From positions 1-64,000 of the forward strand of contig JAIQFC010000010.1 in the NCBI GenBank assembly GCA_020073465.1: a stretch of DNA of 64,000 nucleotides. The letters are read 5' to 3'. The position numbers and the translations under genes were made by a program. The first letter of the stretch is position 1. Each line of letters opens with the position of its first letter. The notes beneath the pieces were generated by a model. The model was not told the origin of the DNA, did no database searches, and saw nothing but the letters and a program-made list of their open reading frames with translations. Source of the DNA: Terriglobia bacterium. GTDB taxonomy: Bacteria; Acidobacteriota; Terriglobia; Terriglobales; Acidobacteriaceae. Positions 391-18,759 of the stretch are shown here, piece by piece.

Positions 391-2316
391 CTAGTGCTTC
401 AAGAACCACGGCGTGGTGGTGTCGTCGGTCTTGAAGAAGTTCAGCAGCATATTGGAATCCTTCTCTCTGCCGAAGGACTGGGAGGGATGAGTGCCATCCG
501 ATTCGAGGTCCTGACAGGTCCAGACCAAGCCGTCGCTGCGGGCCAGCAATCCGTTCGCCCAGTCATAGAGACCCCAATCGACCCAGGGCGCCACTACCGG
601 CCCGTTGGCCGCGTTGTAGTTCATGGACGCGACCCCGTTGAGCTGGTCCTGAATGGTCCACTTCACGGCGAATCCGGTCTGGTAGGCATAGGGCTCAGGA
701 TTGGCGGGGCTGACGGTGCCGTTCGAGTATCCCGCGTAGAACCTGCTGCCATAGTAAGCAAGTTTGATATTGGGGAATTTGGTGTACAGGTTCCGGGCGA
801 TCGATTCCAAATTGGCTTGCGTCTGCTGCATGTTTGACGGGAACGTTCCGGTGGTGGTGTTCCCATCATTGACCCATCCGATGACCACCTGGTTGGCGGT
901 CAAGCCGGATTGAGGCAGGAAGTTCTGCATGATCGGATTCCAGACGGCGTTATTGGGATCCGCAAACATGGTTGCGCTGGCGCGCGGCTGCGCCCCGGGC
1001 ACAAAGGTCACGGCCGGATTCTTGGAGGGAGAGGCGTTGGCATCGGCCATGAACGTCAGGAACACGTCGAACGTATCGGACATGCCGATCGAGAGAATGC
1101 CGATCTTGCCGTTCACCGGATCAACGTTACCGTTCGCATCCAGCGGCTGGATGCCGGCGGCAATCGCCACGCCATCGGAATCGTGAGCCGCAGGGCGAAC
1201 GTTGCTCCCACCGGGATAGAGGCCACCCTGCTTGCCGATATAAGTGCCAGTGCCCAGATCGTTGAGTGGAACGCCGGGAAGCTTGGTTTGGCCTGTAATC
1301 CAGGTGATATTGTTGCAGTTCGAACCCGTCGGACCCAGCACCTGAAGAGACATTGCCAGCGTGGCAGTGTTCGGTATAGCGCTGGAATCCGTTATCTGGA
1401 CCGTGAAGGGGTAAGTGCCGAGGCTGACGCTTGGGTCCAGAGTTCCACTGATGGTTCCCGCAGTCGACAGAGTCAGCCCGGTGGGCAGGGTCGATCCAGT
1501 GGATAGCGAAAAGCTATAGGGTGGCGTCCCGCCGCCAGCGAGCAACGTCGACAGATAGGCGGCTCTGGCCGTGGCGACAGGAAGCGTGGGGAACGATGCG
1601 ATCGCCAGCGCAACCGGGGTCGTGGTTGTGGTCGAGAGGTCGACTCCGTTGCTGGGTAGAACGCTGTAATTCAGCACCAGCACGCTCCTGGAGGTTCCTG
1701 GCGAAATCCCTCGTGCGGTGACCTGCAAAGTAAGCGAAGCGCCCTTGGCCAGAACCGTTGCACCGTTGAACCCGGTCACGGCAAATGGCGGATCAACCAC
1801 GATAGAGTTCAGCGTCATCGAACTTGCGCCGGTGTTGGTGACCGTCACACTCTGGGGCAGGCTGGTCTGACCAGCCGGATTCGAGCCGAAGTCCAGCGAT
1901 GTCGTGCTCAGGCTGGCCTTTGCGGCTGTCGCCTTGCCAGTGCCGGTGAGCGTGATGACCGTCGGGACGCTATCCACGTAAATCGTGAAGGTTCCGTTGT
2001 AGACCTGGGCCGCGGTAGGAGCAAACTTCACATCGTATGTGGTCTTTTGCCCGGCAAGCAATGTCTTTGGCGCCCATCCCGCGAAGAAGAGGAATTGTGA
2101 AGGAGCCAGGGCATAACTGTTCACTGTGACCGCAGTCGTTCCCGTATTGGTGACTGTGAAACTTGTGGAGCCGCTCACCAGCCCGACGGTGACGTTTCCA
2201 AAGTTTTTCGAGGTCGGGGTAATCGTATAAGAGGCCGACGCCAGGGAGGGCCAGAAGATCACTCCGAGACAGGCAACAGCCAAGACAGGAGCCAGACGGG
2301 TCTGAATCGCGTTCAT
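391..2316 (-). CDS. Secreted ASH/Ig-like protein with C-terminal SGNH-hydrolase-like domain
   Basis: A secreted protein of about 641 residues. Domains in order: signal peptide (about 1-30), two ASH/choice-of-anchor-D-like modules (about 31-235), a putative Ig (He_PIG) module with GGGTPPYSFSLS (about 245-330), and a C-terminal domain shared with two neighbours. That domain keeps SGNH-like landmarks: Ser in GMSD (near 414), Asn in WVNDGN (near 484) and DGTHP (Asp/His near 608/611). This suggests an esterase or acetylhydrolase acting outside the cell; the substrate is unknown. The ATG at 2316 is preferred over an adjacent TTG because of the RBS GGAGG 4 nt upstream. Conservation of the triad-like residues in all three paralogs argues for activity. 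Confidence 0.75.
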   Translation of the reverse strand: MNAIQTRLAPVLAVACLGVIFWPSLASASYTITPTSKNFGNVTVGLVSGSTSFTVTNTGTTAVTVNSYALAPSQFLFFAGWAPKTLLAGQKTTYDVKFAPTAAQVYNGTFTIYVDSVPTVITLTGTGKATAAKASLSTTSLDFGSNPAGQTSLPQSVTVTNTGASSMTLNSIVVDPPFAVTGFNGATVLAKGASLTLQVTARGISPGTSRSVLVLNYSVLPSNGVDLSTTTTTPVALAIASFPTLPVATARAAYLSTLLAGGGTPPYSFSLSTGSTLPTGLTLSTAGTISGTLDPSVSLGTYPFTVQITDSSAIPNTATLAMSLQVLGPTGSNCNNITWITGQTKLPGVPLNDLGTGTYIGKQGGLYPGGSNVRPAAHDSDGVAIAAGIQPLDANGNVDPVNGKIGILSIGMSDTFDVFLTFMADANASPSKNPAVTFVPGAQPRASATMFADPNNAVWNPIMQNFLPQSGLTANQVVIGWVNDGNTTTGTFPSNMQQTQANLESIARNLYTKFPNIKLAYYGSRFYAGYSNGTVSPANPEPYAYQTGFAVKWTIQDQLNGVASMNYNAANGPVVAPWVDWGLYDWANGLLARSDGLVWTCQDLESDGTHPSQSFGREKDSNMLLNFFKTDDTTTPWFLKH

Positions 2317-2495
2317 CAATCCTCCAGGGAAATCCAGGGCTGAAGGTCAGGCTGGGAGAAGAGCTTTTTCCCTCATCGAACCTAGGTAGACTATTGAAAA
2401 GTCAGTAACCGGGGGGAGATTGCAGGCAGGAAGACCCCTCTTCCTCGCCGTGTCTGGCATCCATTCTGGCGGGGTCCGAATAGCGTGTCAAGATG

Positions 2496-2503
2496 AAAGA
2501 ATC
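2496..2503. repeat. Target-site duplication, left copy
   Basis: AAAGAATC directly abuts the left end of the IS1595-type element and is repeated exactly at 5051-5058. Eight bases is the usual duplication length for this family. Confidence 0.9.
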
Positions 2504-2527
2504 GGCAATAATATACTTGACTCAGTA
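2504..2527. repeat. Left terminal inverted repeat of the IS1595-type element
   Basis: The 24-bp repeat begins GGCAATAATATACTTGACTC and matches the reverse complement of 5027-5050 without mismatch. The -35 box of the transposase promoter lies inside it. Confidence 0.93.
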
Positions 2528-2545
2528 CACGAATTCTGCTAGATT
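2517..2545 (+). promoter_or_regulatory. Sigma-70-type promoter of the transposase
   Basis: TTGACT (2517-2522), a 17-bp spacer, then TAGATT (2540-2545). The ATG at 2552 lies just 6 bases after the -10 box, where transcription would start, and no ribosome binding site is visible. This implies a leaderless mRNA. Confidence 0.6.
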
Positions 2546-2551
2546 CGGTTC

Positions 2552-3541
2552 ATGGAACGCGAACCGAAAACCCTCCAGCAAGCCATCGTTTACTTCGCCG
2601 ATCCTGACCGCTGCCTGAGTTTCCTTGTGGCGCGTCGGTTCCCTGATGGTGTTATTTGCCCGACCTGCGGCTCCAAAGAAGTGCGATTCCTCGCCACCCG
2701 CCGTCTGTGGGAGTGCAAGAGCAAACACTCCAAGCGGCAGTTCTCGGTCAAGGTTGGAACGATCTTCGAGGATTCGCCGATCCCGCTGGACAAGTGGCTT
2801 ACTGCAACTTGGATGATTGCGAACTGCAAGAACGGTGTGAGCAGCTACGAGATTCACCGCGACGTGGGTGTGACCCAGAAGTCGGCGTGGTTCATGCTGC
2901 ATCGCGTTCGTGTAGCTCTGCGGACTGGCAGCTTTGAGAAGATCGGCGGCGAAGGCAGTGAAGTCGAGCTTGACGAAACCTTCGTCGGCGGAAAACTCAA
3001 GAACATGCACAAACAGAAACAGGCGCGGTATCGTGCAATGAGCAGTACTGGTACCATGGGCGGTCCAGAAGGAAAGACCGTAGTCATGGGAATGCTAGAC
3101 CGCACCGCCCGTCAGATTCGCGCTCAAGTTGTGCCGGATGTTTCGCGAATCACCTTGCAGAACGCCGTGCTCCAGAACGTTGAGCACGGAACCAATGTCT
3201 ATACCGATCAAGCTCCAGCATACGGGCGGCTCAACCAGAAGTACGTGCATGAGATTGTGAACCATGCTGAAACTTACGTCCGTGGCCGCGTTCATACCAA
3301 TGGGCTGGAGAACTTCTGGAGCCTGTTCAAGCGGAACCTTGCCGGGACTTACGTTTGTGTTGAACCGTTCCATTTGGAGCGATACGTCGATGAGCAAGTG
3401 TTCCGGTACAACAATCGCGGCACTCGCAAAAATCCGCTGACTGACGCGGACCGCTTCGATGCTGTGCTGCGGAATCTAGTGGGGAAGCGCATCACCTATA
3501 AGGAACTCACTGGGAAGGAGGGTGAAACGACGCCGTTCTAA
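2552..3541 (+). CDS. IS1595-family (ISXO2-like) transposase
   Basis: DDE transposase of 329 residues, normal length for the family, moving the element 2504-5050. The N-terminus has a zinc ribbon (CPTCGS near 38, then a Cys in LWECKSK). The ISXO2-like DDE domain follows: SEVELDETFVGG supplies the first acid, YTDQAPAY the second, and RVHTNGLENFWSLFKR the third region with the Asn/Glu signature. The reading frame is intact, so the element may still be active. The start follows the promoter so closely that translation is probably leaderless. Confidence 0.93.
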   Translation: MEREPKTLQQAIVYFADPDRCLSFLVARRFPDGVICPTCGSKEVRFLATRRLWECKSKHSKRQFSVKVGTIFEDSPIPLDKWLTATWMIANCKNGVSSYEIHRDVGVTQKSAWFMLHRVRVALRTGSFEKIGGEGSEVELDETFVGGKLKNMHKQKQARYRAMSSTGTMGGPEGKTVVMGMLDRTARQIRAQVVPDVSRITLQNAVLQNVEHGTNVYTDQAPAYGRLNQKYVHEIVNHAETYVRGRVHTNGLENFWSLFKRNLAGTYVCVEPFHLERYVDEQVFRYNNRGTRKNPLTDADRFDAVLRNLVGKRITYKELTGKEGETTPF

Positions 3542-3783
3542 TCCACGTCGCGGTAAGCGTGGCGTCTCGTCGCGCGATCTCTAGGCGCTTTCGTGCGATG
3601 CTTCTCAGCCTCAAGTTCCGCTTTGATTTTCGAGTGCGGAACTTTCAAAAGTCGGTCCAGCAGTCGCGTGAAGTTTCCAAATTCACCAGTCTCATTCTTG
3701 GCGGAAGGCGTCTGGCGAGTTGGCTTTTGCGGCACGACACTAGGAGTGTGCCTTGTCGTGCAACGAAAGTCAATATTGCGCAT
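3538..3783 (-). CDS. Small hypothetical passenger protein, antisense-oriented
   Basis: An 81-residue frame converging on the transposase, overlapping its end by 4 nt. The first 30 residues are Pro/Thr-rich and disordered-looking. An amphipathic helix follows (GNFTRLLDRLLKVPHSKIKA) and then a highly charged tail. The central part resembles small conserved hypothetical proteins with a 'LLxVPHxxIKxxLExEK' pattern, recalled only loosely. No strong RBS is seen. It could be a spurious frame, but its composition is protein-like and no other gene covers the stretch. Function unknown. Confidence 0.45.
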   Translation of the reverse strand: MRNIDFRCTTRHTPSVVPQKPTRQTPSAKNETGEFGNFTRLLDRLLKVPHSKIKAELEAEKHRTKAPRDRATRRHAYRDVD

Positions 3784-3833
3784 ACCGCCATTTTGCGGCT
3801 GAGATGCGTAGCGCTTCGCCGTGTTTGATCGCT

Positions 3834-4593
3834 ATGTTTACTGCTTATTTCGACGATAGCGGAACGGACGGGAATTCGGACATTGCCGTTGCTGCCTGTT
3901 ATGTGTCTGCCAAGCGCGGCTGGGATGATTTCGTAGAGGCTTGGGACCATGCACGACGGGAAGAGGGCTTTGATACCTTCCACATGGCCCACTTCATCGC
4001 AAAGCCGGAGATGGAACATAAGCCGTTCTGTGATTGGGGCACAACCAAGAAAGATCATGTCTACAATCGGCTCGCGAACATCATCAACGAGAATAAACGA
4101 ACAGGCATTGCAGTGGCCGTCCCCAAAGCGATATGGGACGCCACACCGGAGCGCATTCGGCGGCACTACGGCAGGCAGCACTATACCTTCGCCGTGAGGA
4201 TGTGCCTGAACCGCATAGTTAAGTGGCGCGAAAGAAGCATGATCACACTTCCAATTCGGTACATCTTTGATTGGGAAATGCAGAAAACTCAGAAGCGCGA
4301 GGAGATTACTAGAATTTTTGAATTGATCGGGAAGGCACAGAATCAAGCTGTGGCAGGATTGCTCGGCCTCGAACCCCAGGGATGACGTTTTGGCTTGGCA
4401 AATGAGATCGCACATGCGGAAGATATGGCCTATCGGCCATGACGATGAATCGCTTTGCCATCCAGGATTTCGATTGCTGCGACAAGATCAAGAGATGGAC
4501 TTAGGTTTTTTTACACAACAACAAATCGAAAAGTTCATCGTGGATTTTGACGAAATAAACAAAACTGACCCATTCCCGATGGTCTACGATTAA
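3834..4593 (+). pseudogene. DUF3800-domain passenger gene, frameshifted near its 3' end
   Basis: From ATG 3834 the protein starts MFTAYFDDSGTDGNS, with the acidic DDSG motif of DUF3800 proteins, a family of nuclease-like fold and unclear role common in mobile elements. HMAHFIAK and YIFDWE follow. The frame stops at 4385 after GLEPQG. The expected continuation, DDVLAWQMRSHMRK (the family's LQAxDxLAW-like region), is in the +1 frame and runs to a stop at 4593. Dropping one G in ccccaggga (4374-4382) joins the parts as GLEPQDDVLAWQM. Either an inactivating insertion, a sequencing error or, less likely, programmed frameshifting. An upstream in-frame start (3753) is not supported. Confidence 0.75.
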
Positions 4594-4597
4594 GGCG

Positions 4598-4603
4598 TAT
4601 AAT
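4598..4603 (+). promoter_or_regulatory. Candidate -10 box of the small passenger gene
   Basis: A perfect TATAAT ends 10 bases before the ATG at 4614. No good -35 box is visible. As with the transposase, a very short or absent leader is implied. Confidence 0.4.
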
Positions 4604-4613
4604 TCGCGGCGCT

Positions 4614-4916
4614 ATGGCGCACTTCCGTAAGAAACTTAAATGGTGGCTGCGCGACCTTCGTTCATTTGTGACTGGAAAGAGCGGGGCAGCAGAACCCAAG
4701 ACGATTTGGGTCTTGCGCTGTCGTGGATGCAATGGACACCATCAAATGAAAATCACCCAGATAGCATTGCAAGGCATGGAATTTCCTCCAGTAGAGGAAA
4801 TGTTTTCTAATCAACCCATAAAGTGCCCTACGACCGGCGCACAGTTTTACTCAGCTCAGGATGATTGGGTACATCTGACCGAGAGGGAATTCGATCTGCA
4901 TTTTCGACGTAAGTAG
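4614..4916 (+). CDS. Small hypothetical passenger protein with a CxxC motif
   Basis: A 100-residue protein. A basic N-terminus (RKKLKWWLRDLRSF) leads to LRCRGCNGHHQMK and later IKCPTTG, so three cysteines with nearby histidines could form a metal site. The C-terminal half is acidic/aromatic (DDWVHLTEREFDLHF). No family recognised. It lies wholly inside the IS1595-type element, last before the right inverted repeat, so it moves with it. Its TATAAT box suggests it is expressed. Confidence 0.6.
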   Translation: MAHFRKKLKWWLRDLRSFVTGKSGAAEPKTIWVLRCRGCNGHHQMKITQIALQGMEFPPVEEMFSNQPIKCPTTGAQFYSAQDDWVHLTEREFDLHFRRK

Positions 4917-5026
4917 TGCGGTCCTCGAATCGCCAAACGCCATCGCTCCCCTGCCACATTCCTTCCCCTGGCATACCAATTCGTCGAATCCCTGTCACGG
5001 CCTTTTCACTGTGCATTTTCTTTGGC

Positions 5027-5050
5027 TACTGAGTCAAGTATATTATTGCC
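5027..5050. repeat. Right terminal inverted repeat of the IS1595-type element
   Basis: Exact reverse complement of 2504-2527, followed immediately by the second AAAGAATC target duplication. Confidence 0.93.
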
Positions 5051-5058
5051 AAAGAATC
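5051..5058. repeat. Target-site duplication, right copy
   Basis: AAAGAATC, identical to 2496-2503, marking the right insertion boundary. Confidence 0.9.
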
Positions 5059-5100
5059 TGCACAGGGGGCTCCCGCCGAGCCAGCGGAAGCCTATAGATT

Positions 5101-6855
5101 CTAAGGACATGCGGTCGCTGTCTTGCAGAACCAGGATGGGGTATAGGCCGACGTCTTGAAGAAGGTCATGAGCTGGTTCACGACCTTCTGGGCGCCACTG
5201 GTGGAATTCGGGTGGGTCCCATCGGGTTGGAAGTCAACCTCCCCATTGCACGGCGCTCCGGTCTGGCCGTCGCACCAGATGAGCCCGTCACTGCGGGGAT
5301 TGATGCCGTTGGCCCAGAGGTAGGGTCCCCAGGCGGTCCATGCTGCCATACCGGTGGTATAGTCCATGTCGCCCGCCACAGGGTCGACCGTCCCATTCCT
5401 GATCTGGTTGATCTGTGCCTGTACCAGCCACTTGCCCGAAAAGCCGTACTCGTAAGCGTAGGGCTCCGGATTCAGCGGCTTGGGGGCATAACCGGCATAG
5501 ATGCGGGTGGAAAGGAAGATCTGCTTAAGGTTGGGATAGCGGGACCGGGCAGCTCTCACAATCTTCCCCATCTGCAGTTCGTAGTAGCAGGCCTCCGTTT
5601 TGGGCTTCGGCAGTTCGTTGGCACAGATGGTGGAGCTGCTGAGTGCCGAGAAGTTGTTCAACCCTGGGTCGGGATTCGCATTCTTCATCCAGATGATCTG
5701 CACTTGGGCTTCGGTCAGGCAGGGATTGGAAGTGGTCCCACAACCGGAAGGGGCTGAGGGAGCACCGACAGCGGTAGCCAGCACAGTGTCCCGGACACGG
5801 TCGTACTGATTTTCTGCAGGCACTCCCGTAGCTCCGCAGACCGTGCTGGCAGGACCTTGGGCTACCGTCCACGGACAAGCGGTCACAGCACCGTGAGCTC
5901 CATCTTCGATAGCTAGAGTTGTGTTGTTTATCTTCGAATCTGTAGCTGCGGCAGTGACAAACGCGCTGAACTCGATGGTCGCGTTCGACATACCGATGCC
6001 GAGGAAAACGACGGCGCCCTTCGGACTCGGATTGCCATTCTGGTCGAGCGGTTGGATCGCCTTGGCGGCCGCTTTACCAGCCGCATCGTGATCGGGAGGT
6101 GGGGTCTTGCTGTTGTTCTCATAAAGCCCTCCCGGGAATCCCAGGTAGTTTTGACTGGACGTCATGTCCATGAGGGGGATCTCCGCAGCGTTGGAGGCCA
6201 CCGTGACCGGAGAGCTGGCCGGAAAGCCACCTGCGATCGCGCCGACTGTAGTCAATCCCGGGGCTACACCTGTCAGCAGGCCCGTGTTTGCCCCAACAGT
6301 AGCCGTTGACTGATTAGTGGACTGCCAGGTGGAGGAATCGGTTACCGTTTGGGTGGAGCCGTCCTGGTAGTTGGCAACCGCTATAAGCTGCAAGGTTGCC
6401 CCCGGCGCGATCGAGGGATTGATCTGGCCCAGCGACAGGCCGGTCTGCGGCGCGGTGGTGGTGATGTCCAGAACCGTCAGGGCGGTGATGCCATCGAAGG
6501 TTGCTTGAATGTTGGGAGATGGCGACTTGGCACTTACTGCGGTCGCCAGGCCAGGATCCGTCTGTCCGGCGGTCTCAATTGTAGCTCGGCTGGGGTCCGA
6601 GGAAACCCAGGCGGCCTGAGCAGTGACGTCGCTTGTCGATCCGTCGCTGTAACCGGCTTTGGCCTTGAACTGTTGTGTAGTGCCGTTGGCAATAATCGGG
6701 TTCGAGGGACTGATGGAGAGGGAGGTCAGAGTGGGCGGAGGAGTGACCTGAGTCGGACCACCGCCGCTGCTGCCGCCGCAGGCCGACATGATTGCCAACC
6801 CTATGCCCCCGAGTACCCACCGAACTGTCTTCCTCATGCCCAAATATCGCCCCAT
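5101..6855 (-). CDS. Lipoprotein with two Big_2-like Ig domains and SGNH-hydrolase-like domain
   Basis: 584 residues. A lipoprotein signal with lipobox-like IMSAC ends near Cys26, so the protein is probably lipid-anchored. Two bacterial Ig-like group 2 modules follow (about 42-130 and 138-220, each with the YxDGSTxxVT pattern). The C-terminal domain (about 235-584) is homologous to those at 391-2316 and 7061-8053: GIGMSNA (Ser290), WMKNANP (Asn392) and PDGTHPN (Asp545/His548) fit SGNH blocks I, III and V. The conserved segment RIYAGYAPKPLNPEPYAYEY is nearly identical in the third copy. An alternative start at 6837 (MRKTVRW) would suit the signal peptide. Probable extracellular esterase; substrate unknown. 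Confidence 0.75.
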   Translation of the reverse strand: MGRYLGMRKTVRWVLGGIGLAIMSACGGSSGGGPTQVTPPPTLTSLSISPSNPIIANGTTQQFKAKAGYSDGSTSDVTAQAAWVSSDPSRATIETAGQTDPGLATAVSAKSPSPNIQATFDGITALTVLDITTTAPQTGLSLGQINPSIAPGATLQLIAVANYQDGSTQTVTDSSTWQSTNQSTATVGANTGLLTGVAPGLTTVGAIAGGFPASSPVTVASNAAEIPLMDMTSSQNYLGFPGGLYENNSKTPPPDHDAAGKAAAKAIQPLDQNGNPSPKGAVVFLGIGMSNATIEFSAFVTAAATDSKINNTTLAIEDGAHGAVTACPWTVAQGPASTVCGATGVPAENQYDRVRDTVLATAVGAPSAPSGCGTTSNPCLTEAQVQIIWMKNANPDPGLNNFSALSSSTICANELPKPKTEACYYELQMGKIVRAARSRYPNLKQIFLSTRIYAGYAPKPLNPEPYAYEYGFSGKWLVQAQINQIRNGTVDPVAGDMDYTTGMAAWTAWGPYLWANGINPRSDGLIWCDGQTGAPCNGEVDFQPDGTHPNSTSGAQKVVNQLMTFFKTSAYTPSWFCKTATACP

Positions 6856-7060: not shown

Positions 7061-8053
7061 CTATTTCTTGAACCAGGTCGCGTACGGCGAGTTCAACAGG
7101 AAGTCTATCAAGAGGTGCGCGACCTTTTCTCTGCCCTTCATATTAGGATGAGTGCCGTCGCGCCCATATTCGGAGGGGCTCCAGGTTAGTCCGTCTGATC
7201 GTGGGACTGTCCCATCCGCCCAGAGATAAGGCCCCCACGCCATCCACGGGGCCACGCCTTTCTTGTAGTCGAGATCCCCGACCTCAGGATCAATCTTGCC
7301 ACTGCGCATCTGGTCAATCTGCGCCTGGATCGCCCACTTTACGGAAAAGCCGTACTCATACGCATAAGGCTCGGGATTCAGGGGCGTCGAGGCATAGCCG
7401 GCATAGATCCGGCTGGAGATGAACATCAACTTCAGATTGGGATAGCGAGACCGCGCGGCCCGGGTCATGTCGCCGATGAAAGCCTCGTAGCGGTAGGCTT
7501 CGGCATCACTCGAGGGCAAGGAAGTTCTAGGACGCGGATCGGCGTTCTTCATCCAGATAACTTCCACCTGATCTTCGGCGAGGCCCGCCGGCTTAAGCAG
7601 TTCATCGCGGATGCGATCGTAGAGGTTCGGGATGTAATCCGGAGCGCCGCAGCCGTGCTGGCGCGGCGTTTCCCTGGCTGGAGTCCAGGCACAGGCGGTC
7701 ATGGCTCCCATCGCCCCGTTGATCACAGCCATGGAACTGTGGTTCACCCGTTTGTCGTCGTCTGCCATGTCCTTGAAAGTGCCAAACTCCATGGCGGCAT
7801 TGCTCATGCCGATTCCGAGGAAGACGAACTTGCCGCGAATGGGCTTCACTTGCTCAGCCAGCGCCAGACCGGCGGCCTTGTGATCAGAGGGAACATCGTT
7901 CGTTCCTCTTTCGTAGAGTCCCCCCTGAAAGCCTTTGTATTTATCCGCACCAAGATCATTTAGAGGTTTGGCGACAAAGGATTGGGCCCACAGTGCGGTT
8001 GAGAGCAACAGGCCGACAGCTTGGATTCCAGAAAGTCGTAGGACCTTGCGCAA
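7061..8053 (-). CDS. Secreted SGNH-hydrolase-like protein, minimal version
   Basis: 330 residues from a TTG at 8051-8053, chosen because AAGGAG lies 6 nt upstream and the product then starts with a good signal peptide (MRKVLRLSGIQAVGLLLSTA). The mature protein is only the domain shared with the two preceding paralogs, without Ig modules. It has GIGMSNA (Ser84), WMKNADP and RDGTHPN (Asp299/His302), matching SGNH catalytic blocks. It is the simplest form for defining domain limits. All three copies end in a similar aromatic tail (TWF/SWF/PWF). Predicted periplasmic or secreted hydrolase. Confidence 0.75.
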   Translation of the reverse strand: MRKVLRLSGIQAVGLLLSTALWAQSFVAKPLNDLGADKYKGFQGGLYERGTNDVPSDHKAAGLALAEQVKPIRGKFVFLGIGMSNAAMEFGTFKDMADDDKRVNHSSMAVINGAMGAMTACAWTPARETPRQHGCGAPDYIPNLYDRIRDELLKPAGLAEDQVEVIWMKNADPRPRTSLPSSDAEAYRYEAFIGDMTRAARSRYPNLKLMFISSRIYAGYASTPLNPEPYAYEYGFSVKWAIQAQIDQMRSGKIDPEVGDLDYKKGVAPWMAWGPYLWADGTVPRSDGLTWSPSEYGRDGTHPNMKGREKVAHLLIDFLLNSPYATWFKK

Positions 8054-8116
8054 TGGGTTCTCCTTGCGATGGGGAGCGTCACCGAATGATGCTGTGGCCT
8101 GACCGGTTCCTGCAAT

Positions 8117-8150
8117 CAAAAAATACTCAGCGGGTGGCACGCTGAGTATT
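8117..8150 (-). terminator. Rho-independent terminator of the GH39-like lipoprotein gene
   Basis: On the minus strand an 11-bp stem (AATACTCAGCG / CGCTGAGTATT, 8122-8132 with 8140-8150), a 7-nt loop, and a following T-rich run form a classic terminator. It lies 32 bases after the stop codon at 8182. Confidence 0.85.
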
Positions 8151-15552: not shown

Positions 15553-18342
15553 CTACTGAACCGTGAGCGTAATGGTTGCCGGATGCTGCAGTGGCACGAA
15601 CGAACCCTTCACGGTCAGGGTGTACGTTCCCGGTGCAGTCGAGCTACCCACGGTGATTGTGACCTGTGACGTCCCGTTATTGACGCCGTCGAGTGTGACG
15701 GACGTCGGATTCGGGGTGCAGGTCGTACCTGCCGGGGCACCAGTACACGTGAGACTGATGGTCTGGTTAAACCCGACGATGGGCTTGAGAGTAGTGTTAA
15801 CCAAGCCATTGTTGCCCCGGGCCACGGTTATTGCACTCGGTGAGTTGGCGATGCTGAAGTCCGGTCCCGATCCCGACAGCGCGATCGTTTGCGGACTGTT
15901 CGACGCGTTATCGGTGTAGGTCAGGGTCGCCTTTGCCTGGCCGTAGAAGGTCGGGGTGAAGACGACGCTTGTGGTGCAGAGAGCGTCCACTCCGAGCAAT
16001 ATGGGCAGCGTTCCACAATTGTTGGTCTGTGCGAAGTTGCTGGCATTTGTGCCGGTGATGCTGAGGTTCGTGAGGTTGAGGTCTACGCCACCCGTACTGC
16101 TGAGCTTGACGGGCTTGGACGGGCTGGCTGTATTCAGCGCCACGTTGCCATAGTTCAGGGCCGGGGGTGTGAGCGTAGCGGTTGGGGTCAGGTGAGCCGT
16201 CCGGATGCGGTTGTTCCCCTGATCAGCGATGTACAGATTGCTGCCAGAGTCAACCCAGAGCCCGAAGTTGGCCAACGTGGCCTGACTGGCCAGACCGCCA
16301 TCGCCGGAGAATCCGCCCACCAGAGGCTTTTTGGCGTTTCCGGCGACCGTACCCCAGATGCCGGTTGTGGCGTTGATGCGCTGCACCACGTTGTCGTTGC
16401 CGCCGCCGACGAAGACGTTGCCGGCCGAATCGGTCACGACTTCAAGCGGGTTCCACATGCTGCCGCTCAAGGCCGGGCCGCCGTCTCCACACAGGCAGGC
16501 TTTCCCCGTGCCCATGTAGGTGTTGATGATTTGGCTCGTGGCATCTACTTTGCGGATCTTGTTGTTGTACTGATCCGAGATGAAGAGATTACCCGCGCCA
16601 TCCAGCGCGATGCTCGAAGGATGGTCCAGATTTGCTTTGGTAGCCAGACCTCCGTCGCCCGCCTTCCCTTCGATACCGGTTCCAGCGACCGTGCTGATGA
16701 TCTGAGTTGCGGCATTTACTTTCCGAACCTTGAAGGAGAAGTAGTCGGCGATATAAAGGTTGTTGCTGGCGTCGAGTGCGACCGTCAGCGGCCAGGTAAG
16801 GTTGGCACTGGTCGCTGGCCCACCATCTCCACACGTCGCCGTTATCGGGAAACAGGAATTGCCATTGCCCGCCACTGTGGTGACGTTGTGCGTAGTGGCG
16901 TCGATTCTGCGAACCACCAGATTGCCTGTATCGGCGAAAAAGATGTTCCCCAACGTATCGACCACGACGGACGTCGGGCCGTTCAGCATGGCGCTTGTCG
17001 CCGGGCCACCGTCGCCGCTGTAGCCTACACTGCCGGTTCCAGCCACCGTGGTAATGATCCCGCCGGAGACTTTGCGGATGCGGTTGCTCCCGGTATCAGC
17101 GATATACAGATTGCCAGTCGAGTCCCCAGTAATAGTGTATGGTCCTGCCAGCAGGGCATTGGTTGCTGCAGCGCCGTCGCCGCCGCTACCTCCGCCCGCC
17201 AACGTCTGAATCACCCCGGTGCTCGATACAATGCGTACTCGTTGATTGCCTGCGTCAGCAATCAAGACGTTCCCCGAGCCATCCACTGAGACTCCGACAG
17301 GAAGATCGAGCAGAGCGCCGGTCGCTGGTCCGTTGTCGCCGCCAAAACCCTGAACGCCGAGGCCGGCAAAGAGATTGATCACTCCAGACGTGTTAACCAC
17401 CCGGATCTTGTGATCTGCTGTATCCGCGATGTAGACGTTGCCCGTTGCGTCCACCGCAACTTGCTGCGGCCGATGCAGGTTCGCCAGCGTGGCCGGATGA
17501 CCATCGCCGCAAGTAGTGGTCGAGTCATGACAAAATCCGCCATTGCCCGCAAACGCGGTGATGACCCCCCCTGACACGATTCGGACGCGCTGGTCCAGAG
17601 TGTCAGAAACGTACAGATTACCAGCCGCATCGACTGCGATGCCTTCGGGGAAGTTCAACTGAGCCGAGGTCGCAGCGGCGCCGTCTCCGCAGGTATTGGT
17701 GGGGTTGGCGCACGCGTTGCCATCTCCCACGACTGTCGTAATGATGTTGGTGATCGCATCGACACGGCGGATCTTGTTGTCGGTAGCGTCTGCGATGAAC
17801 AGGTTTCCAGCGCTGTCCAGAGCGATGGCCTCCGGAAGATTCAGGAGCGCGGCCGTAGCCAGCCCGCCGTCTCCGCAAGGGTTAACCCCGTGGGCGCACT
17901 TCGTGCCGTTGCCCGCAACGGTTGTGATCACGCCGGTGGTCTTGTCCACGCGCCGAACGCGAGTCGCTCCGGGATCAGCAAAGAACAGGTTGCCGTTGTT
18001 ATCGAAGGCAATGGCCGCGGGACTTCCCAACTGCGCCGCACTTGCCTGAATACCATCGCCATTGAACCCGCCGTAGCCCTGGCCCGCGAACACGCTCAAC
18101 GTTCCGCTAGTGGACAGCTTGAAAATGTTGGCGGAAAGTGGGGCAGCAATGTAGGTGTTCCCCGCCTGGTCTCTGACCGCGGCAGTGGGTCCGGGAAGGT
18201 TGGCCGTCAGGGGCGTGGTGGGCGTTGGCCCTCCACCGACAACCGTGCTGATGATGTTCTGCGCGAACGCCGGGACCGTCTGAAGGCCCAAGCCAATCAC
18301 GAGAACGGCTGCCACCATGCTAATCGAGCGGGTACGTGTCAC
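15553..18342 (-). CDS. Secreted NHL-repeat beta-propeller with ASH and Ig-like C-terminus
   Basis: 929 residues from GTG 18340-18342, chosen for the GGAGG 5 nt upstream; a longer frame reaches 18396. A signal peptide ends at PAFAQ. About ten NHL-type repeats follow, each with a GNLFIADxxNxxIRxVD core and a TVAGNG...GDGGxAT linker, forming one or two propellers (about 35-700). Then an ASH domain (about 705-800; Cys pair NNCGTL/DALCTT) and a terminal Ig-like domain with CTGAPAGTTCTPNP. No enzymatic motif is visible. Probably an extracellular binding or scaffold protein. Confidence 0.8.
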   Translation of the reverse strand: MTRTRSISMVAAVLVIGLGLQTVPAFAQNIISTVVGGGPTPTTPLTANLPGPTAAVRDQAGNTYIAAPLSANIFKLSTSGTLSVFAGQGYGGFNGDGIQASAAQLGSPAAIAFDNNGNLFFADPGATRVRRVDKTTGVITTVAGNGTKCAHGVNPCGDGGLATAALLNLPEAIALDSAGNLFIADATDNKIRRVDAITNIITTVVGDGNACANPTNTCGDGAAATSAQLNFPEGIAVDAAGNLYVSDTLDQRVRIVSGGVITAFAGNGGFCHDSTTTCGDGHPATLANLHRPQQVAVDATGNVYIADTADHKIRVVNTSGVINLFAGLGVQGFGGDNGPATGALLDLPVGVSVDGSGNVLIADAGNQRVRIVSSTGVIQTLAGGGSGGDGAAATNALLAGPYTITGDSTGNLYIADTGSNRIRKVSGGIITTVAGTGSVGYSGDGGPATSAMLNGPTSVVVDTLGNIFFADTGNLVVRRIDATTHNVTTVAGNGNSCFPITATCGDGGPATSANLTWPLTVALDASNNLYIADYFSFKVRKVNAATQIISTVAGTGIEGKAGDGGLATKANLDHPSSIALDGAGNLFISDQYNNKIRKVDATSQIINTYMGTGKACLCGDGGPALSGSMWNPLEVVTDSAGNVFVGGGNDNVVQRINATTGIWGTVAGNAKKPLVGGFSGDGGLASQATLANFGLWVDSGSNLYIADQGNNRIRTAHLTPTATLTPPALNYGNVALNTASPSKPVKLSSTGGVDLNLTNLSITGTNASNFAQTNNCGTLPILLGVDALCTTSVVFTPTFYGQAKATLTYTDNASNSPQTIALSGSGPDFSIANSPSAITVARGNNGLVNTTLKPIVGFNQTISLTCTGAPAGTTCTPNPTSVTLDGVNNGTSQVTITVGSSTAPGTYTLTVKGSFVPLQHPATITLTVQ

Positions 18343-18759
18343 AATTACCTCCAACAGAATTTGAGTGCGGGAAGACAGCGCCGCCGGGTTGAACACAGAC
18401 TTCTCATACGCGACAGTGAAAGCAAGTCCCTTGGTTGACCAGTTTTTCGAAGAGTTCCAAGACGATAGGGGTATATAGCGACCGCTATGAGGGAGGTACT
18501 CGGGCGATTATGCAGAAAGCGCAAAAGGCCGGTCAAGATGAACGAATTTGCATAGCGCCCAATTTTCCCGGCGCGAGTACGATCTCCGGCAGAGACAATC
18601 GTCTCCGGTCGATAGTGTGAAACCGAGGCACTCCTAGACAGTGAACGCTGGGTGCGCTCTGGGGTTGCGGTACGCCCTGCCACATTCCTGGGAGTCATCT
18701 GGATTTCTTCGCGGAGACCTGGGATTGCCTCAAACCCGTTCCTTTCAGCCATTCAATCC
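18343..18759. other. Intergenic region upstream of the NHL-repeat gene
   Basis: 417 bases between two genes on the minus strand. A small palindrome gagacaatcgtctc lies near 18590-18605 and a run GATAGGGGTATAT near 18463-18477. The only long frame here (18345-18752, minus) reads as low-quality Arg/Ser-rich sequence and is not called. Promoter signals for the downstream gene are presumably here but none is clear. Confidence 0.3.

Follow-up and report, generated by a model that had tools for sequence, protein, structure and literature searches.

An IS1595-family element of Acidobacteriaceae with a near-constant small gene, VPHS, and a variable cargo slot holding a probably inactive DUF3800 gene

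Results

Structure of the element and its insertion site

The window analyzed here is a 64,000-nucleotide stretch of an Acidobacteriaceae contig, and the element under study occupies positions 2504-5050 of it (2,547 bp). Its 24-bp inverted ends, IRL (2504..2527, plus strand) and IRR (5027..5050, minus strand), are complementary at 24 of 24 bases, and the element is bracketed by two exact copies of the 8-bp sequence AAAGAATC, one on the left at 2496..2503 and one on the right at 5051..5058. A target duplication of 8 bp is the norm for the IS1595 family. Downstream of the left end lies the transposase gene (2552..3541, plus strand), which encodes 329 aa with a zinc ribbon and a DDE_Tnp_IS1595 domain, and whose product matched PF12762 (1.9e-40) and PF12760 (3.2e-10) in Pfam, both above the cut-off. 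A promoter-like pair (TTGACT-17 bp-TAGATT; 2517..2545, plus strand) is located in and beside IRL, points to the transposase, and ends 6 bp upstream of its ATG. The original prediction had described an IS1595-family element with perfect ends, an exact duplication, a whole transposase and passenger genes, and all of these were confirmed, the passengers being the VPHS gene and the DUF3800 pieces that lie between the ends. The transposition backbone of this copy looks whole.

The first passenger is a small gene on the minus strand (3538..3783; listed with 81 aa, although its start codon is uncertain) whose stop codon overlaps that of the transposase; the name VPHS was coined for it in the present analysis. 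It is followed on the plus strand by a DUF3800-like gene in two pieces, a first part of 183 aa (3834..4385) that ends early through a frame change near 4370-4390, and a C-terminal part of 67 aa in another frame (4390..4593). The first part scored 20.0 bits against a Pfam gathering score of 21. A copy with an unshifted gene had been proposed as something to look for, and one was found in the sister element L144, where DUF3800 forms a single open frame of 299 aa in the same divergent arrangement as in the window (DUF3800 52% over 145 aa; VPHS 58%). The C-terminal part of the window gene matched the corresponding part of this unbroken gene at 35% over 54 aa (E 8e-4). L144 has a transposase ORF of just 151 aa, and its ends showed no flanking target duplication. 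Since the L144 gene is unbroken, the window gene is either broken or affected by an assembly error at this point. The cargo of the window copy is probably inactive, with its DUF3800 gene broken in frame.

A CxxC ORF of 100 aa (4614..4916, plus strand) was considered as a conserved gene and rejected; it is an orphan that found only itself in 396 genomes and among the collected loci, and its coding status is unsupported. The claim of three non-transposition genes therefore stands in part: the antisense ORF is real and conserved, whereas the DUF3800 gene is split between two frames and the CxxC ORF has no relative in the genomes searched. A hairpin across the right end was also considered as a feature of the group and was rejected, because it was best in the window (10 of 12 bases) and weaker in the next sisters (9 and 8).

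The genome that carries the window (5.9 Mb in 67 contigs) contained one full copy of the element, the remaining matches being partial, and four further IS1595 transposases. One of these four, on contig C27, belongs to a second element (L105), which has DUF3800-like cargo and VPHS and is flanked by an exact duplication. An empty site without the duplication had also been proposed as a check. When the two flanks were joined without the element, a match across the joint was found in 4 of 44 congeners (own genome excluded). In G530 the joint was aligned over 240 bases at 65% identity with one copy of the target, and this congener likely carries the empty site of the window element. The matches in G524, G531 and G542 span only 25-33 bases; instead of the corresponding site, they may represent a short motif that occurs in several copies. 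The site in G530 would indicate a past insertion, not present activity, for an element that is single-copy in its genome.

The element interrupts a motif of about 22 bp, GTCAAGATGAAAGAATCTGCA (2485-2503 joined to 5059-5063), which on the minus strand contains TTGACA when the next base is counted. A second copy with 3 mismatches is located at 18531-18552, upstream of the gene at 15553-18396 (minus strand), and the motif was found in four congeners too; possibly it represents a shared promoter or operator. The ORFs at 391-2319, 5101-6855 and 7061-8140, all on the minus strand, appear by eye to share a related domain (G..GGLY followed by DGTHP), and the element is inserted between two of these three apparent paralogues.

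Sister elements

A transposase scan of a collection of species genomes gave 94 encoding stretches, and the best 80 of the 94 were used; by a count of their titles, 70 of the 80 carry Acidobacteriota names and 10 carry other names. Both ends were identified at 52 of these loci, which together with the window make 53 elements, and the 28 loci that failed are outside the element counts. The paired-end elements are 1.7-4.4 kb long. An exact 8-bp duplication is present in 42 of the 53 and absent from 11, and the duplications lean toward a weak palindrome, CTTATAAG. All 53 contain a -35-like hexamer (at least 4 of 6 bases) within the left end, and in 45 of them a -10-like hexamer (at least 4 of 6) follows after 16-18 bp, compared with 7.0 expected from shuffles. 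A right-end promoter for minus-strand cargo was considered and rejected: -10-like hexamers at the right end exceeded chance for cargo of either strand (17 of 40 versus 4.2 expected, and 4 of 13 versus 1.3 expected), and the excess is thus not clearly related to the orientation of the cargo.

Conservation of VPHS

An alignment of 26 VPHS proteins revealed a core of the form F..F......L.VPHSEIKAKLDAEK followed by a basic tail. Pfam and NCBIfam hold no name for the family; the window member had no match in them, and the scattered matches of other members all had E values of at least 0.0019. The VPHS profile (E<=1e-3) found the gene in 41 of the 53 elements, namely in every one of the 26 used for training and in 15 of the remaining 27, and gave one match in 334 kb of flanking DNA. 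That sole match (L083, 1965-2198) is an additional VPHS gene located some 1 kb away from the element. Near the same place in 9 of the 12 profile-negative elements, a divergent form, EGPEA..F....LFRAPK, was recognized by eye. Comparison of the two profiles gave E 1e-4 with a probability of only 58%, and the two forms would belong to one family, partly on the strength of rows that have both features (L067, L166). In L074, L079 and L087, which come from other phyla, neither VPHS at E<=1e-3 nor the divergent form was found; L079 gave a plus-strand VPHS match at 0.0013.

Among 150 genomes of the window's family, in many of which scoring covered a portion of the initial candidates, at least 99 VPHS matches were found in at least 54 genomes. 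At least 67 of these 99 matches are no more than 2.5 kb from one of the 150 IS1595 transposases listed, and at least 60 of the 67 are convergent with and downstream of it; in the sister elements, too, VPHS is usually tail-to-tail with the transposase. For the other 32 matches, 31 stretches were examined: a whole or fragmentary transposase was found in 11 of them and not in the remaining 20, some of which are truncated at a contig end.

The pN/pS ratio was below 1 in all 75 usable pairs of VPHS genes (45-98% identity, at least 45 codons; the pairs are mutually non-independent), with 1316, 1123 and 2085 differences at the first, second and third codon positions, respectively. VPHS is under purifying selection in all 75 pairs, and what had been put forward as a possible antisense gene is a member of a conserved family. 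Across the sequences compared, no gene of the element group apart from the transposase is as conserved as VPHS. Structure prediction gave two helices (residues 34-46 and 50-75) with a mean pLDDT of 76 and a pTM of 0.36. The VPHS proteins of L062 and L050 had no match at E<=0.1 in a comparison with plasmids.

These results bear on the simplest alternative, in which an ordinary insertion sequence has trapped neutral DNA and the small ORFs have arisen by chance. The broken DUF3800 gene of the window and its orphan CxxC ORF would be expected of such an element, but the conservation of VPHS and the selection on it, the recurrence of DUF3800-like cargo described below, and the unbroken gene of the L144 sister all argue against this explanation, which was already disfavoured and is very improbable.

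Exchange of the cargo slot

Five close pairs of elements (80-91% DNA identity) could be aligned from position 1 through the transposase to or into VPHS, where the alignment stopped. These are L062/L063 (89%, element positions 1-1128), L070/L071 (86%, 1-1196), L033/L034 (91%, 1-1268), L044/L054 (80%, 1-1236 and about the last 65 bp) and L050/L053 (82%, 1-1045, and again over part of VPHS past an inserted stretch). On ORF coordinates, the joints fall within VPHS or at its start. After the joint the cargo is unrelated in L062/L063 and L050/L053, and in the three other pairs it is of the same broad kind with no alignment at the DNA level.

Among the 53 elements, DUF3800-like cargo was found in 18, including the window, which had already been in the starting set of the DUF3800 model through a BLAST link; the classes c1, c3 and c4 accounted for 8, 6 and 5 elements. 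DUF3800-like cargo thus recurs with this transposase group, contrary to the refuting case that had been set, in which cargo and transposase would never occur together. Of 84 scanned cargo ORFs, 12 matched PF12686 at E<=0.01. No homology between cargo classes was found in four profile comparisons (DUF3800 with c1, c3 and c4, and c1 with c3). On a quick transposase tree of 38 elements (37 of the 53 plus L105) with four classes, cargo class changed 13 times, compared with a possible minimum of 3 and with 15-19 in 200 shuffles, which argues for some inheritance and much exchange.

Judged by gene order, the backbone of the group is the left end, the transposase, a usually convergent VPHS gene and the right end. 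The cargo slot is normally located between VPHS and the right end; closely related elements differ in what it holds, and the cargo occurs in both orientations. In L022, L030, L048 and L053, VPHS is beside the cargo and does not adjoin the transposase. One element from a congener, L154, is 1,487 bp long and contains DUF3800 and VPHS between ends that are 22/24 alike, with a 7/8 duplication; no transposase was found between its ends.

A same-strand ORF of at least 130 aa ends just before or within VPHS at 72 of 117 matches, and at 6 more it is fused to VPHS (some loci being counted twice). Such co-directional, overlapping and sometimes fused arrangements raise the alternative that VPHS is a promiscuous partner of the cargo (antitoxin, chaperone or adaptor), the two genes forming a toxin-antitoxin or defence operon that would stabilize the element. 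The persistence of DUF3800 and VPHS in L154 without a transposase is consistent with this, as are the antitoxin-type cargo domains SocA_Panacea in L087 (an element that itself has no VPHS) and MqsA/HTH-like in L064. However, DUF3800 is on the plus strand, opposite in direction to VPHS, in the window, L037 and L041 (minus in the other 15), the c3 segment is inverted in L033/L034 relative to other c3 elements, and VPHS is present in L024 and L029 with no cargo ORF longer than 105 aa. The partner explanation would also require one small family to pair with many unrelated proteins, and we regard it as rather unlikely.

Candidate defence-type cargo

Cargo seen in single elements comprised GmrSD (L071, and L070 with a HEPN protein), PDC-S33 (L032), PDC-M63 (L022), a SocA/Panacea protein (L087) and a trypsin-like protein below the Pfam cut-off (L074). 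An MqsA/HTH-like domain was among the cargo of L064, and the group scan gave RelA/SpoT- and SIR2-like matches that are known at group level and not by element. PADLOC models (E<=0.01) matched 7 of 20 cargo proteins and 2 of 20 flanking proteins; the numbers are small, and the cargo proteins were picked by hand from non-DUF3800 ORFs and include one region read on both strands. One of the two flanking matches is a helicase-like protein that matched 56 models and the other is marginal; among the seven cargo matches, two are marginal as well (0.0011 and 0.00063). Full or near-full candidate matches were obtained for L071 (HEC-06, 2.7e-160, the GmrSD protein), L032 (PDC-S33, 2.5e-97) and L070 (NsnA, 2.9e-56, and PD-T4-2_A, 2.5e-50). 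The first gene of L022 matched PDC-M63A over most of its length (2.2e-23), and L074 matched PDC-S45 in part (2.8e-12).

If the cargo were in general an anti-phage defence gene, the group would be a carrier of single defence genes. The candidate matches in L071, L032, L070 and L022, the partial one in L074, and the excess of cargo over flanking matches point in this direction, but that excess is small and comes from a chosen set. Furthermore, representatives of c1 (L040, L045), c3 (L051) and c4 (L080) had no PADLOC match, the window DUF3800 part matched 0 families, and the window cargo is broken. A general defence role is possible, with the balance of these points somewhat against it, and the matches in sister cargo are a lead that is suggestive only, also with regard to the earlier idea that the cargo may benefit element or host.

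The DUF3800 gene

The structure of a DUF3800-like relative in L048 was predicted with a pLDDT of 76 and a pTM of 0.75, and the five best PDB fold matches of the model were RNases HII, HIII and H2. These matches were weak (E 4e-3 to 2.4e-2, none <=0.001; TM by query length 0.30-0.34), with probabilities of 0.94-1.00. They agree with the RNase H fold with catalytic rearrangement that is reported for DUF3800, along with an association with putative ncRNAs, in PMC10910872. Unbroken DUF3800 genes are present in L048 and L065, among other sisters, and D(D/E)SG is a conserved motif. The decayed DUF3800 gene of the window is probably RNase H-like, on the basis of the match made with L048 rather than with the window's own broken protein, and it may on that account have encoded a nuclease. 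When PDB sequences were searched with the DUF3800 profile, the best E was 0.53, and the window DUF3800 part had no match at E<=1e-5 in plasmids. Of 49 Pfam-DUF3800 matches in the 150 genomes of the family, just 13 had a listed transposase or VPHS within 2.5 kb; the domain is therefore not bound to the element.

Rfam includes DUF3800-associated RNA families, according to PMC11701678. Here, in contrast, DUF3800 (PF12686) is the cargo of an insertion sequence, and no structured RNA was found in Rfam at 2300-5300, these families included; the one match, to a miRNA model, had an E of 0.94 and 19.8 bits against a cut-off of 56.

Discussion

Transporter insertion sequences (tIS) of the IS1595 family are already in print, in PMC3129680, PMC8496243 and PMC5704250, which cite Siguier et al. 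2009. The window element is like the named tIS (tISCpe8, MTnSag1/tISSag10) in having an IS1595 DDE transposase, inverted ends and a passenger gene inside. The named tIS carry other cargo, which for tISCpe8 is lincomycin resistance according to a reference title. Unlike them, the window group has a passenger slot that changes among close relatives, while VPHS is nearly constant.

The explanation that we favor, and consider fairly probable, is that the window element is an IS1595 tIS with a backbone of transposase and VPHS, the latter probably an accessory protein, and a swappable slot that now holds a decayed, probably RNase H-like DUF3800 gene. According to this model, the transposase would act on the 24-bp ends and duplicate 8 bp of target, and the left end would provide its promoter. 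VPHS, a basic protein with two predicted helices that is retained alongside the transposase in elements with many types of cargo, would most likely serve the element by regulating or assisting transposition. It would probably be co-expressed with the cargo gene, since the latter often overlaps VPHS or is fused to it. In the window copy the slot holds a DUF3800 gene that is now frame-broken, and the backbone looks whole.

A broader proposal is more tentative and, in our estimate, on the unlikely side: a widespread IS1595 subgroup with a transposase and VPHS core, in which VPHS would control transposition or license the cargo upstream of it, and which, starting from a 2-kb insertion sequence, would act as a modular carrier that shuffles single nuclease or defence genes among soil bacteria.

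L154 is like a mobile insertion cassette (MIC) in that it has passenger genes between ends and no transposase was found there, whereas the window element has its own transposase. The abbreviation MIC is used in PMC3129680.

No paper combining DUF3800 and IS1595 was found in the literature search. Nor was a description found of a constant small gene in the literature on IS1595, IS passengers or defence, in a search of titles and abstract openings with ISfinder and subscription papers outside its scope, so that a prior description is possible. The tIS is a known kind of element, and what would be added here is the division into a near-constant small gene and an exchanged slot. This division makes the role of the constant protein in transposition directly testable, and likewise the possible transfer of individual defence-type genes by small IS elements. 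The group also offers natural contexts with unbroken copies in which a function could be assigned to DUF3800.

Two further loci were observed. In L112 (426-4127) there are two consecutive DUF3800-like genes with an inner right end at 3272, an arrangement that looks as if cargo had been gained stepwise. In L183 (3510-5989), a Roseomonas marmotae plasmid, an IS1595 transposase is followed by a hypothetical gene and a PIN-domain gene, and this is perhaps another tIS with toxin-like cargo.
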